Assembly: GCF_023101665.1 (NCBI RefSeq)
Contig: NZ_CP082161.1
Span: forward strand, 186,001 to 250,000
DNA length: 64,000 nt
Direction of reading: 5' to 3'
Origin: Bradyrhizobium sp. 195
Lineage (GTDB): Bacteria; Pseudomonadota; Alphaproteobacteria; Rhizobiales; Xanthobacteraceae
Shown: one piece after another, positions 38,822 to 43,082 of the stretch
Layout: each line of letters begins with the position of its first letter
Numbering within the stretch: position 1 is the stretch's first letter
Made by a program: the position numbers and the translations under genes
Notes under the pieces: model-generated
Database searches by the model: none
The model's input: the letters and a program-made list of their open reading frames with translations, nothing else
What the model was told of the DNA's origin: nothing

Positions 38822-40069
38822 TTAGCGCTTCGCGTCCGCCTGTTCCGTGCCGGTGCACGAGATCAGCATCGTATAGGCGCGGGCGTTGGTGGCGATGTCG
38901 GTGGTCTTCAATTCGCCCTTGGGCTCTGCGGTCTGGTAGGGCACCACGGAATTGTCGAGGAAGTCGCGCAGCGCGCCGGTCTTGATGGCGAAGTTGATGT
39001 TTTCTGTCAGCTGCCCGGTCTCCTTGATCATCCTGAGCGCGTTGAGCTTGGCCACGACGACGCCTGCGACCTGGCCGGACAAGTCGAACAAGGGGCCTCC
39101 ACTGTTGCCCGCTTGAACAGCCGCGCTGATCTGCAGACGTCCCGTGTGATTGCGGAAGCCGCTGAGCGAGCTGACGATGCCCGTCGTCACGGTCAGGTCG
39201 GAGGAGAGATAGCCGTGCAGCGGGAAGCCGATGGCGACCACGGAATCGCCGGAGTGCATCGAGCGGTCCCGGATCTTCGCAAAATCCTTGAATGCTGCTG
39301 TCGCCGGAGCTTGCAGCAGCGCGAGATCATTTGTCGCGTCGCTGGAGACAACCCGCAGCACCATCGCGGTCTCCCCGGCGAGATTGCCTTTGATATCTCC
39401 GGTGCAGCTATCGATCACGTGACTGTTGGTGACGATGTGTCCATTGGGGCTGACCACAAAACCAGTGCCAGTGAAAGTCCCGGTTCGCCCCGGCTTGGTG
39501 GGAGGCGCACCTTGCTTGTCGCCGACCAGTGCGGGCTTCGCTGCAACCTTGGTGAAGTCGCCGGCCTTATCCAGCCCGTCGGCCTTGACCCGCGTTACGC
39601 AATTGGTGACCGCGACGATCAAAGGCGCCGTTGACGTCAGACTGAATTGAAAAGGTGTGCCTCTCGCCACCGCCACCATCAGGCTCGCCTTCTGGAAAGC
39701 ACGCGCTACGTTGGTGGGCAGAACGGCCGAGACCATCACATCGGAGAACGCGGTCGCGAAGAGTCTTACCTCGGCCTGACCGTCGAAAGTCACGTCGATC
39801 GTCAGGTTCTCGCCCTTTTTGAAACGAAACGCTGGATTGGCAAAGCCGAGCAGCCACGCATTGTTAGAATCCTGGCCGACAAGCAGTGTCATGCCGTTGG
39901 CGTAGGGTGTGCTTGCGGCGCAGTGGGAGAATGCGCCGGTTGAATCATTGGTATAAGCGCCGCCGTTCCAATTGCCGACATGGATGGTGCCGAAAGGCCC
40001 CGCCGCATGAGCGAGTCCGGCCAGCATGGCCTGGAAAACAAACGCAACGACAAATGACTTGAGCCACAT
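38822..40069 (-). CDS. secreted trypsin-like serine protease with an unusual N-terminal domain
   Basis: 415 residues. A signal peptide ends near LAGLAHA|AGPFG. Residues 24-165 form an N-terminal beta-rich domain (GTIHVGNWNGGAYTNDSTGAFSHC, with WLLGFANPAFRFKKG further on) that I have no name for. The protease domain at about 198-375 has the full triad: His217 in TNSHVID, Asp248 in TNDLALL and Ser323 in QAGNSGGPLF. There is no PDZ domain, unlike DegP. Residues 376-415 are a short tail with one Cys. It is divergent from the prenyltransferase operon and 12 bases from the DUF3551 stop. Confidence 0.88.
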   Translation of the reverse strand: MWLKSFVVAFVFQAMLAGLAHAAGPFGTIHVGNWNGGAYTNDSTGAFSHCAASTPYANGMTLLVGQDSNNAWLLGFANPAFRFKKGENLTIDVTFDGQAEVRLFATAFSDVMVSAVLPTNVARAFQKASLMVAVARGTPFQFSLTSTAPLIVAVTNCVTRVKADGLDKAGDFTKVAAKPALVGDKQGAPPTKPGRTGTFTGTGFVVSPNGHIVTNSHVIDSCTGDIKGNLAGETAMVLRVVSSDATNDLALLQAPATAAFKDFAKIRDRSMHSGDSVVAIGFPLHGYLSSDLTVTTGIVSSLSGFRNHTGRLQISAAVQAGNSGGPLFDLSGQVAGVVVAKLNALRMIKETGQLTENINFAIKTGALRDFLDNSVVPYQTAEPKGELKTTDIATNARAYTMLISCTGTEQADAKR

Positions 40070-40173
40070 ACCAGCCCCCGGGAATGCTTCGGATCCATCT
40101 TATCTGGGCCAGCCGGCGTCGCGCAACCGGCAGTTGTCTGTTCGAGCCGGACGTCGCGTCGGGGCATTCGGGC

Positions 40174-40201
40174 TTGCGTTTACTTTGCATCCGTATATAC
40201 T
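40174..40201 (+). promoter_or_regulatory. possible promoter of the membrane protein / regulator / prenyltransferase operon
   Basis: TTGCGT at 40174-40179 and TATACT at 40196-40201 with a 16-base spacer resemble a sigma-70-type promoter. The palindrome at 40199-40215 overlaps the -10 element. Confidence 0.45.
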
Positions 40202-40215
40202 TTGCGATACAAAGT
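40199..40215. promoter_or_regulatory. palindromic operator candidate, copy 1
   Basis: ACTTTGCGATACAAAGT has perfect six-base arms ACTTTG/CAAAGT. It matches the palindrome at 41270-41286 in 15 of 17 positions. A further half site ACTTTGCAT lies at 40182-40190, 17 bases away. It overlaps the likely -10 element of the operon. Confidence 0.7.
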
Positions 40216-40263
40216 GACGGGGCAGGCAGTCCCGGCAAGCATGGGCGGAGCGAGGTTCTGGCG

Positions 40264-40887
40264 TTGCCAATACGCGATCTCGACAAGGCACTGGCCGACA
40301 TCGTGACGATCCGCAGCCAGATCGCGGCCGGCACGGCGTTCCGCGGTTACGGCCCTGCGACGATGGTCGCGACCGGTGCCGTCGCGCTGCTCACCGCGAT
40401 CCTGCAATTCTGGCTGCTCGGCGATCCCACCAGCGAGCCGCTCGGCTTCTTCTTCGGCTGGTTCATCGCCGCCGCGCTCTCCGGCCTGATGATCGGGATC
40501 GAGATGCGCGCGCGATCGCGCCGTCATCATTCGGGTCTGGCCGACGCCATGATCCATCAGGCGGTCGAGCAGTTCCTACCCGCAGGCGTTGCCGGTGTGC
40601 TGCTCGCGGTGGTGATGTGGAAGTTCGCAGGCGAGACGCTGTGGTTGCTGCCGGGCCTGTGGCAGATCCTGGTGTCGCTCGGCATTTTCGCCTCCGTCCG
40701 CTCGTTGCCGCGCAGCGTCGCGTTCGCCGGCGCCTGGTATTTCGTGTCCGGCTTCGCGGTGGTGGTCGTCGCCAGCCAGACTCACACGCTGTCGCCATGG
40801 ACCATGGGCCTGCCCTTCGTGATCGGGCAGTCGATGATGGCGGGCATTCTGCATGTCGCATCCGGAGACCACGATGTCGAAGACTGA
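40264..40887 (+). CDS. four-to-five-helix membrane protein of unknown function, first gene of a prenyltransferase operon
   Basis: 207 residues from a TTG at 40264 with GAGG eight bases upstream; no ATG is available near the start of the conserved-looking part. Hydrophobic helices lie at about residues 32-52, 58-78, 103-120, 128-145 and 155-195 (MVATGAVALLTAILQFWLL, FFFGWFIAAALSGLMIGI, LPAGVAGVLLAVVMW, LWQILVSLGIFASV, YFVSGFAVVVVASQ). Family not recognised. It overlaps the downstream regulator gene by 14 bases. Confidence 0.75.
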   Translation: MPIRDLDKALADIVTIRSQIAAGTAFRGYGPATMVATGAVALLTAILQFWLLGDPTSEPLGFFFGWFIAAALSGLMIGIEMRARSRRHHSGLADAMIHQAVEQFLPAGVAGVLLAVVMWKFAGETLWLLPGLWQILVSLGIFASVRSLPRSVAFAGAWYFVSGFAVVVVASQTHTLSPWTMGLPFVIGQSMMAGILHVASGDHDVED

Positions 40888-41248
40888 CAGCGCACCCTTC
40901 TCTTACGAAGGATTGGACCGCGTGATTCACGAGAAGGCGAGGCTCGGGCTTCTGACCTCGCTGATGGCGCATCCGAAGGGACTGGCATTCGCCGACCTCA
41001 AGCAGCTGTGCGGCCTCACCGACGGCAATCTCAGCCGGCACCTTGCCGTGCTCCAGGAGGCCGGCCTCGTCGAGGTGACCAAGGGCTACGAGGGCAACCG
41101 TCCGCACACCACTTGCCGCCTCACCAAGACCGGCCGCCGCCGTTTCCTCGACTATCTCGCCGTGCTCGAGCGTCTGGTGCGCGACGCTGCGAAGGCCGCC
41201 GGCCGCGAGGCGCCACCGCTCGGCCGCCTCGGCATCGCCTCGACCTGA
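40874..41248 (+). CDS. winged-helix transcriptional regulator (ArsR/MarR-like, HTH_34 type)
   Basis: 124 residues. The winged helix is KARLGLLTSLMAHPKGLAFADLKQLCGLTDGNLSRHLAVLQEAGLVEVTKGYEGNRPHTTCRLTKTGRRRF, about residues 20-92; recognition helix around DGNLSRHLAVLQ. There are no Cys metal sites of the ArsR type (one Cys only in LKQLCGLT and one in TTCRLT). The ATG at 40874 has GGAG; an ATG at 40853 is also in frame. It is the obvious candidate to bind the two 17-bp palindromes in this operon. Confidence 0.85.
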   Translation: MSKTDSAPFSYEGLDRVIHEKARLGLLTSLMAHPKGLAFADLKQLCGLTDGNLSRHLAVLQEAGLVEVTKGYEGNRPHTTCRLTKTGRRRFLDYLAVLERLVRDAAKAAGREAPPLGRLGIAST

Positions 41249-41269
41249 TCCTCCCCTTTTTGACCGGAG

Positions 41270-41286
41270 ACTTTGCAATGCAAAGT
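41270..41286. promoter_or_regulatory. palindromic operator candidate, copy 2, over the prenyltransferase start codon
   Basis: ACTTTGCAATGCAAAGT is a perfect palindrome (eight-base arms). The ATG of the next gene is at 41278-41280, inside it, and the GGAGA ribosome site directly abuts it. A bound repressor would block elongation into, or a fold would mask initiation of, the last gene only. Confidence 0.7.
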
Positions 41287-42018
41287 GATCTTACGTCCCG
41301 CAACGAGAAGCTTCATGTCGGCATCATCATGGACGGCAACGGACGATGGGCGACGCGGCGCGGCCTGTCTCGCTTGCGCGGCCACGAGGCGGGCGTGGAG
41401 ACGATCCGCCGTATCGTCGAGGCTGCGCCCAAGCAGGGCATCGGCACGCTGACGCTCTACGCCTTCTCCACCGACAATTGGCGGAGGCCGAAAGCGGAGG
41501 TCGCTGCATTGATGACCTTGCTGCGTTTCTATCTTGCCAATGAGGTGCAGAGCCTGGTCAAGAACGGTGTGCGCCTCACCGTGATCGGCCGTCGCGATCG
41601 TCTGCCTGACGGCATCGCAACTGCGATTACGCGTGCCGAGGAAACCACCGCCCGGGGCGGCACGCTGCACCTGCGCATCGCGGTCGATTATTCCGCGCGC
41701 GATGCCATTCTCAATGCTGCTGCGAAGGCGGCCGCGTTGACCAGCATCACCCGCGAAGCCTTCTCGCAGCTCGTCACCGGCGAAGCCGGCCTGCGCGACG
41801 TCGACCTCATCATTCGCACCTCCGGTGAGAAGCGGCTGTCGGACTTCCTGCTCTGGGAAGGCGCCTATGCCGAGCTGCACTTCACCGAGCGGATGTGGCC
41901 CGAGTTCGACGCGAGCGATCTTGCCGCTGCCCTGGCCTCCTTCCATGGCCGCGAGCGTCGCTTCGGCGGCCTTCAGGCGGTCATGCCCGAGGAGGTGCCG
42001 TCGCTCTCCCGTGTGTGA
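41278..42018 (+). CDS. uppS: cis-prenyltransferase (undecaprenyl diphosphate synthase family)
   Basis: 246 residues. It has the family regions in order: HVGIIMDGNGRWATRRGLSRLRGHEAG (about 13-39, catalytic Asp in MDGNGRW), TLYAFSTDNWRRPKAEV (about 60-76) and DVDLIIRTSGEKRLSDFLLWEGAYAELHFTERMWPEF (about 174-210). The usual function is condensing isopentenyl diphosphate units onto farnesyl diphosphate to make the lipid carrier for cell-wall sugars. The usual uppS lies with frr, cdsA and dxr; this copy lies with a regulator and a membrane protein, so it may be a paralogue with a specialised product. 29 bases after the regulator. Confidence 0.92.
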   Translation: MQSDLTSRNEKLHVGIIMDGNGRWATRRGLSRLRGHEAGVETIRRIVEAAPKQGIGTLTLYAFSTDNWRRPKAEVAALMTLLRFYLANEVQSLVKNGVRLTVIGRRDRLPDGIATAITRAEETTARGGTLHLRIAVDYSARDAILNAAAKAAALTSITREAFSQLVTGEAGLRDVDLIIRTSGEKRLSDFLLWEGAYAELHFTERMWPEFDASDLAAALASFHGRERRFGGLQAVMPEEVPSLSRV

Positions 42019-42395
42019 CGCGCGGCACATGAAACGAGCCGTTCGTTTTCAGCCGCATGATTGACGGCAATGTCCAAGCGGCCAGTGCGCGGCTTCGGCT
42101 AGGTGTGCAAGTCCCAGCACCTGCCGAAAGCATCACGCATGTCACAGCTGTTTCCGGGAGCCGTCGTCGAGCCGGTCGAACTGACCGAAGCGTCCACCTC
42201 GCGAAGCGCTTGTTGCGCTAGCCGGGCCTGCCGATCGGTCGGCCGCCTTTGGCGGGATTTCGCGGCGGCAAGGCGTTTGCACGCTGCTCGGTGCACATGA
42301 TTCGCCGGCATGACCGGATCAGTCGTCAGCACCGCGGGGCTGGACGGCATCGTCGAATTCTGATGTCGTGGCGTGCCCTCAACCGCTTGTGTCGC
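42019..42395. other. intergenic stretch between the prenyltransferase and glycosylase genes
   Basis: About 380 bases without a repeat family or a supportable gene. A 65-codon frame at 42103 lacks a ribosome site and any family likeness. Confidence 0.4.
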
Positions 42396-43082
42396 ATGAC
42401 CCCCTTCAAGACCATTCGTGCCCGCGCCGAAAAACGCAAGGGCGGGCCCAAGGCGCTGGAAAAGCTGATGCCGGCAAAGCCCGACCTGAAGCGGCTGGCC
42501 AGGCTCGGCGACGACCGCATCCTCGCCGAGATGACCAAGCGCGTATTCTGCGCCGGCTTTGCTTGGAGCGTGATCGAAACGAAATGGGATGGCTTTGAAG
42601 AGGCCTTCCTGCGTTTCCAGCCGGCCAAGCTCAGCTTCCAGCCGGAGGACTATTGGGAAGGCCTTTTGCGCGACGCGCGTATCGTGCGCAACGGTGCCAA
42701 GATCATGTCGGTGCGCGACAATGCGGGCTTCGTGCAGGAGATCGCGAAGGAGCATGGCAGCTTCGGCAAGTTTCTGGCGAAATGGCCTTCGTCCGACCAG
42801 ATCGGCCTGCTCGACCTCCTGACCAAGCGCGGCAGTCGTCTCGGCGGCAATACCGGCCAGATGCTGCTGCGCTTCGTCGGTTGGGATGGCTTTGTCACGT
42901 CAAAGGATGTCGTCGCGTCCTTGCGCGATGCAGGCCTCGACATTGCCGAAGAGGTCAAGTCGAAGGGCGATCTCGCCAAGGTGCAGGCGCAGTTCAACGC
43001 CTGGGCCGAGGAGACTGGTCTATCCTACACCTATCTGTCACGCATCTGCGCGCTGTCGGTCGGCGAGAACCGCAGCGACTAG
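42396..43082 (+). CDS. Tag-like DNA-3-methyladenine glycosylase I family protein, divergent
   Basis: 228 residues of helix-hairpin-helix glycosylase type. The segment VFCAGFAWSVIETKWDGFEEAFLRFQPAKLSFQPEDYWEGLLRDARIVRNGAKIMSVRDNA parallels E. coli Tag (AGLSWITVLKKRENYRACF...GIIRHRGKI). However the Glu before the AGLSW motif, which contacts the base in Tag, is Arg here (KRVFCAGFAW), and the N-terminal and C-terminal Cys/His zinc ligands of Tag are absent. It may remove alkylated bases with altered preference. The ATG at 42396 is chosen for homology; the frame runs further upstream. Confidence 0.8.
   Translation: MTPFKTIRARAEKRKGGPKALEKLMPAKPDLKRLARLGDDRILAEMTKRVFCAGFAWSVIETKWDGFEEAFLRFQPAKLSFQPEDYWEGLLRDARIVRNGAKIMSVRDNAGFVQEIAKEHGSFGKFLAKWPSSDQIGLLDLLTKRGSRLGGNTGQMLLRFVGWDGFVTSKDVVASLRDAGLDIAEEVKSKGDLAKVQAQFNAWAEETGLSYTYLSRICALSVGENRSD

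Follow-up and report, generated by a model that had tools for sequence, protein, structure and literature searches.

A conserved Bradyrhizobium operon predicted to hold a second cis-prenyltransferase gene under two operators of its own repressor

The operon and its two operators

The DNA analyzed here is a stretch of 64,000 nucleotides ('the window') from contig NZ_CP082161.1 of Bradyrhizobium sp. 195, whose genome comprises 9,137,078 bases (9.14 Mb). It contains three tightly packed genes on the same (+) strand: a membrane protein gene (40264..40887, with a TTG start of our own choice), a gene for an HTH_34 (PF13601) winged-helix regulator (40874..41248), which overlaps the first by 14 nt, and a second cis-prenyltransferase gene assigned by profile match (PRK14839/NF011412; 41278..42018), here called uppS2, which starts 29 nt beyond the end of the regulator gene. 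Two 17-mers on the same strand, ACTTTGCGATACAAAGT at 40199..40215 (operator 1, or site 1) and ACTTTGCAATGCAAAGT at 41270..41286 (operator 2, or site 2), agree at 15 of 17 positions and lie 1071 bp apart. An earlier note on this DNA had described this matching pair and had placed the first site over the probable −10 element and the second over the start codon of the prenyltransferase gene; both placements hold, with TATACT at 40196..40201 (+) running into operator 1 and the ATG at 41278..41280 falling inside operator 2. Two other elements were absent from that note. One is a half-site, ACTTTGC (40182..40188, +), between the −35 and −10 elements and 17 nt upstream of operator 1; the other is a run of five T (41257..41261, +), which lies in the non-coding gap after the regulator stop codon. 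No account of this operon was found among the matches listed in the open-licence PMC literature, nor did we find there a paper joining undecaprenyl, Bradyrhizobium and uppS, or HTH_34 with winged helix, or the CAAAGT palindrome with both winged helix and ArsR.

The regulator, a protein of 124 residues, matched HTH_34 with 76.5 bits against a Pfam gathering cut-off of 27. Two other classes were rejected: the ArsR/SmtB metalloregulator model (NF033788) gave 34.2 bits, below its curated cut-off of 55, and the SdpR-family model (NF033789) gave 15.8 bits, below its cut-off of 100. When the pattern ACTTTGN5CAAAGT was sought in the whole genome, exact matches occurred at two places, both in the operon, and the reversed control pattern occurred at none. 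In other words, the 17-mer is not a common sequence of this genome, and the earlier observation is confirmed in a stronger form. With one mismatch allowed, the pattern was found at nine places against eight for the control; no wider target set was visible at this level, and a wider regulon was therefore rejected.

Next, we surveyed 98 congeneric genomes for the operon (regulator at E up to 1e-30, uppS2 above the NF011412 cut-off). The regulator and uppS2 co-occur in the same 73 genomes, and neither was found in the same other 25, four of which (G645, G682, G698 and G704) are less than 90% complete. The 73 operon genomes hold 133 exact sites, with at least one in 71 of them; the other two (G650 and G655) carry variants instead. 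The 25 operon-free genomes hold three exact sites in two genomes (two in G633 and one in G664, all with G+C-rich spacers), which is close to background because the reversed control also gives two places in these 25 genomes (15 across all 98). No regulator or uppS2 match was present in the stretches around the G664 site and one of the two G633 sites. This comparison supports the view that the two 17-mers are genuine operators whose presence depends on the operon.

We also compared individual loci. The genus set consisted of 85 loci, namely the window, 80 relatives (the best 80 of 141; by title 75 Bradyrhizobium, one Frankia and four Alphaproteobacteria or Hyphomicrobiales) and four others; it holds at least two double rows (L192 repeats L035 and L193 repeats L076), and L200 repeats L187. 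With up to two mismatches, a script found operator 2 in 84 of the 85 loci. It is exact in the remaining one (L062), which was scored as lacking it because its uppS2 match starts late, and whose contig holds no operator 1. Among loci of other families, 26 of 30 carry operator 2 with up to three mismatches. The triplet at the start-codon position within operator 2 is ATG in 106 of these 110 loci, GTG in two, TTG in one and ATA in one (L187). Both sites are conserved in nearly all examined operon-bearing relatives, which confirms the conservation in related species on which the earlier reading depended.

Within the genus, operator 1 appears to occupy a classical repressor position. A −35-like element (CTTGCG in the window, 40173..40178, +) keeps each column of its CTTG in at least 97% of 80 ungapped genus loci. 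TAT directly abuts operator 1 (in 81 of 84 genus loci), and together with the first three bases of the operator it gives TATACT. The half-site, with at most one mismatch to ACTTTG, recurs in 77 of 84 genus loci and 15 of 29 other-family loci. Given that operator 1 shares bases with a genus-conserved −10 element, the comparison favors autoregulation at the promoter, as had been proposed; it likewise favors a putative second block specific to the prenyltransferase gene.

The second cis-prenyltransferase

The uppS2 product scored 427.3 bits with NF011412, for which the curated cut-off is 334. The genome holds two PF01255 matches, and the other one lies in a pyrH-frr-uppS-cdsA-like cluster, between pyrH/frr-like and cdsA-like frames (named from their translations and not by family search), so that a normal uppS is indeed present elsewhere. 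A tree of 45 chosen UppS2 and 19 canonical rows separates the two groups by one fully supported branch.

To characterize the enzyme, we compared 11 positions with catalytic roles in Escherichia coli UppS (D26, R30, R39, H43, S71, N74, W75, R77, R194, R200 and E213), and the UppS2 of the window keeps all of them. Among the 45 UppS2 rows, where R39 was not scored, S71 is replaced by A in three, R200 is replaced by A in one and E213 is unaligned in one; the rest are kept. The leucine at the tunnel end (position 137) is retained in 44 of 45. The clade also has fixed changes of its own, N144D and G146S in 45 of 45 rows and N203D in 44 of the 44 scored (E. coli numbering). Canonical rows show N or S at 144, G or S at 146 and N at 203, and all three positions fall in conserved motifs. 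UppS2 thus looks like a separate paralogue that is catalytically intact.

The earlier note took the separate placement and the membrane partner as a hint that the product of UppS2 is a specialised polyprenyl lipid instead of the bulk cell-wall carrier. The separate clade and its three fixed changes would fit such a product. However, the conserved catalytic positions of the window protein, the leucine kept in nearly every row, and the lack of an evident lipid-modifying gene in the operon argue in the other direction, and the claim, which we consider doubtful, was not supported. On the simplest reading of the sequences, UppS2 would make long-chain product and so enlarge the carrier pool; it may instead make a product of different length or use a different allylic substrate.

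The element upstream of uppS2

In 94 of the 110 loci with operator 2, a run of five to eight T ends exactly 8 nt before the operator, as it does in the window. Runs of at least five T show this gap in 77 of 84 genus loci and 17 of 26 other-family loci, and the exact spacing occurs in ten families (f1, f2, f17, f161, f232, f245, f247, f248, f250 and f256). All other gaps between 0 and 15 nt amount to two loci, one with a gap of 9 and one with a gap of 12. For comparison, only 18 of the 64,000 window positions have a run of five or more T 8 nt upstream. We then sought the composite pattern T5-nonT-N7-RCTTTRN5CAAAG on both strands of 397 genomes of the order. It occurred once in each of 24 genomes, and by coordinates a regulator match lay next to every one of these places; the reversed control occurred at five. 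A close regulator (E up to 5e-46) is present in 35 of the 397 genomes, and the 24 genomes with the composite are among these 35. The putative element formed by the T-run and operator 2 is the new point of this analysis.

Some loci add detail to this element. A hairpin of 6–7 bp abuts the T-run in L168, L169, L175 and L189, with the regulator stop codon in the loop or at its edge, and an abutting hairpin was also seen in L160 and L166. The membrane protein of L169 is identical to one of Methyloligella sp. In L187, the ATG within operator 2 has become ATA, and translation seems to begin at a new Shine–Dalgarno (SD) sequence and ATG downstream of the operator. This locus keeps a T7 run, the 8-nt gap (which contains no SD sequence) and a perfect operator. 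Their retention without the start codon argues against a purely translational role, albeit from a single lineage.

We consider it probable that the locus is a self-repressing three-gene operon with a roadblock at operator 2, which would raise the supply of polyprenyl diphosphate (most likely undecaprenyl diphosphate) when it is needed. The comparative sequences support the presence of two operators that depend on the operon, the spacing of the T-run and the intact-looking UppS2. What follows on binding and repression, on the roadblock with termination, on the membrane protein as sensor, and on the inducer and the product length is our inference. The HTH_34 protein would bind ACTTTG-N5-CAAAGT. 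When bound at operator 1, it would cover the −10 element and repress the whole operon, and when bound at operator 2, it would form a roadblock about 1.07 kb downstream, before uppS2. Polymerase that leaks past operator 1 would still transcribe the genes of the membrane protein and the regulator, but would then stall with its active centre close to the T-run and be removed at that point. Operator 2, which is well positioned for such a halt, and the T-run would then act as one stop element for uppS2 alone, which would let the cell keep low levels of the sensor and the regulator while making no enzyme. Upon disturbance of the carrier pool or the envelope, the membrane protein would remove the regulator from the DNA, and the loss of the repressor would allow read-through into uppS2, giving the cell a second, inducible supply of the wall-lipid carrier. 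Overproduction of UppS is harmful in Bacillus subtilis (PMC11081497; here and below, the cited papers are represented by excerpts), which may be why the gene has two locks.

Repressor roadblocks have been reported in bacteria for LacI, PurR, GalR, ArsR, CcpA and CodY (PMC10310618, PMC4132739). They resemble the present prediction in that a repressor downstream of the start halts an elongating polymerase. They differ in that the excerpts, looked at for a few terms, mention no dedicated T-run at a fixed spacing, whereas the T-run here is conserved across families. In E. coli, polymerase stalled at LacI is mostly removed by Mfd (PMC4132739); with removal of this type, a hairpin would not be needed.

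A likeness in geometry is found in eukaryotic terminators of RNA polymerase I (Pol I). At these terminators, the polymerase is paused by a roadblock protein (Reb1, Nsi1 or TTF1) while it is within T-rich sequence 15 bp upstream of the protein's site; the roadblock and the T-rich sequence together favor backtracking, and the RNA is released by a hairpin (PMC12366685). Relative to operator 2, a T7 run spans −15 to −9 and the T5 run of the window −13 to −9, so that a T-rich stretch at about this distance is present in the 94 loci with the 8-nt gap, with an upstream hairpin in some lineages. The Pol I terminators are constitutive, whereas the bacterial element, if real, would be regulated. We therefore suggest, tentatively and by analogy, that operator 2 and the T-run may form a repressor-gated terminator at which polymerase is stopped at the T-run and backtracking and release are favored, as with Reb1 and Pol I. 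Methyloligella (L169) and a few further lineages have a full terminator hairpin ahead of the T-run, with the regulator stop codon in or at its loop, and there the trailing ribosome may also take part. If true, the Pol I terminator would have a conserved and regulated equivalent in bacteria. The fixed spacing makes it possible to test with precision whether a DNA-bound repressor serves as a termination switch.

Other explanations of operator 2 and the T-run were also considered. The T-run could be a U-rich ribosome-recruiting stretch before the SD sequence, with its gap reflecting the fixed positions of SD and start codon, and most of the loci inspected do have a GGAG- or GGAA-like SD inside the 8-nt gap. 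The exception of L187, which is one lineage only, together with the terminator-type hairpins placed directly before the T-run in L168, L169, L175 and L189, makes this unlikely; in addition, the pattern of T-run, SD and start codon matches this place only in the 64-kb window. Another possibility, raised by the earlier note, is that regulator dimers on both operators loop out the intervening 1.07 kb for tighter promoter repression, operator 2 being an auxiliary site as in lac. Two near-identical sites in one operon, the second retained in most lineages, would be expected in that case. The distance between the sites, however, varies (1030–1087 bp within the genus set and as much as 1234 bp outside it, in L160) with no periodic preference by eye, although phasing is a weak test at 1 kb. 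Furthermore, looping leaves the fixed gap between the T-run and operator 2 unexplained, and a winged-helix protein of 124 residues would have little room for a tetramerisation domain. We thus find looping improbable and did not retain it as the reason for two sites.

The palindrome could also act in the mRNA, where ACUUUGC-AAU-GCAAAGU would fold over the start codon and lower translation. The window RNA at 41264–41292 does fold with its stem over the AUG (−8.2 kcal/mol, z −2.5), and every stem pair is kept in 68 of 84 genus loci. In the remaining 16, and in 14 of 26 other loci, at least one pair is broken and the half-sites persist; the same letters recur at operator 1, which should straddle the transcription start given the −10 element, and in L187 the palindrome persists despite the moved start codon. 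We give this explanation very little weight. An internal uppS2 promoter served by operator 2, rather than an effect on elongation, is equally hard to credit: the window sequence TTTTTGACC is similar to a −35 element, but most other families read TTTTTTTGCCAGG or similar in place of TTGACC, and a promoter scan reported none there on the + strand (weak evidence, because it missed the operator 1 promoter too).

Several observations weigh against the proposed roadblocked, self-repressing operon. Outside the genus, TAT precedes operator 1 in only nine of 29 loci (TGT in six, the rest mixed). Three of the seven loci of genus g206 (L171–L173) keep the operon and operator 1 and have lost operator 2. 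The exact T-run spacing is missing in seven of 84 genus loci and in nine of 26 other-family loci (L087, L158, L159, L161, L164, L170, L174, L189 and L198); of these nine, seven have no five-T run there, L189 has a gap of 9 and L158 has an interrupted run. Operator 2 and the T-run are therefore not indispensable. No stable hairpin abuts the T-run in the genus loci inspected, where it is weak or absent. For Pol I, Lac repressor and LexA did not give efficient hairpin termination at a distance (PMC12366685); both are poor stand-ins as roadblocks in hairpin-dependent Pol I termination, so that the analogy need not carry over. As for the sensor, a profile comparison between the membrane protein and that of a distant membrane-protein/HTH_34 pair gave a probability of 3%, and a relation is not shown by it.

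The membrane protein and the regulator module

The membrane protein matched no Pfam family, and 65 members of its family gave few, weak and scattered Pfam matches. Its AlphaFold model (mean pLDDT 85, pTM 0.78) has an N-terminal helix and six further helices. On our reading the gene starts with TTG in this genome, and several relatives show ATG where this genome has ATA. A metagenomic protein of 321 residues (P0029) joins the membrane protein to the regulator, either as a natural fusion or through a frame error. Judging from the gene order and overlap, this fusion and the precedent of SdpI/SdpR, the membrane protein is likely to be a sensor that acts on the regulator. In the SdpI/SdpR system of B. 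subtilis, an autorepressor is sequestered by its membrane partner (PMC1626106). Both systems pair a small DNA-binding protein with a polytopic membrane protein, and autorepression is reported there and predicted here (PMC1626106). The present system differs in its regulator, which is below the SdpR-family cut-off, in its membrane protein without a Pfam family, in its cis-prenyltransferase output and in its second operator.

A likeness in possible logic, that of a membrane sensor adjusting the supply or use of the carrier lipid, is also seen with SigM/YhdLK of B. subtilis, a sigma/anti-sigma system that controls mainly the use and recycling of undecaprenyl phosphate (PMC11081497). In the present operon, by contrast, it is synthesis that would be induced, by way of a second synthase. 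The supply of carrier lipid limits the synthesis of wall and surface polymers. To our knowledge, the adjustment of its synthesis by bacteria has been little studied outside Bacillus. The operon joins a second synthase with a sensor-like protein and a repressor of its own, in a conserved arrangement, and if the proposal is true, it represents a carrier-lipid homeostasis system in Alphaproteobacteria.

The membrane-protein/HTH_34 pair also occurs without the synthase. Twelve distant HTH_34 loci (35–45% identical) each lie behind a hydrophobic frame, and no uppS2 match was found at these 12 loci. We related the recognition helix to the site in these and some extra loci (L093, L096 and L177 were unscored, having no regulator match). 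With the helix TDGNLS, a site with at most two mismatches lies upstream of the distant pair in five of five loci, and with TDGNLG, TEGNLG, TDGNLD or TQGNLS in none of 15. These results suggest that the operator was already part of an older module of membrane protein and HTH_34 regulator, and that uppS2 joined this module later. L191 (G849; genome 58% complete) was kept apart from this count. It has the helix TNGNLS, and its operators are altered to AGTTTGCAATACAAATC upstream of the membrane gene and GGTTTGCAATGGAAACT upstream of uppS2. Altered sites are expected if the variant helix residue contacts the outer base pairs, and this single example possibly represents a change of specificity.

Genome G1086 has the membrane gene, the regulator and both sites with no uppS2 match (L201 and L202; L201, which keeps operator 2, is outside the genus and other-family site counts). 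Its operator 2, in the usual orientation at position 3103 of L202, is followed by a 71-codon frame and then by a large hydrophobic frame, and may control another gene there. The Bradyrhizobium sp. 195 genome itself contains a second membrane-protein/HTH_34 pair (G000:C1:7166596-7166937; L096), which has the helix TDGNLG and no ACTTTG site and is followed by a purD-like frame, named from its translation.

In the window, the operon is flanked upstream by a gene for a trypsin-like protease (38822–40069, −) and downstream by a methyladenine-glycosylase-like gene (42249–43082, +), neither with an evident link to it. Within the stretches fetched, they were matched in 55 and 42 of the 80 genus relatives, respectively. 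One contig (G622:C16) carries two copies of the operon with equal scores about 0.55 Mb apart, which may reflect a recent duplication or an assembly artefact.

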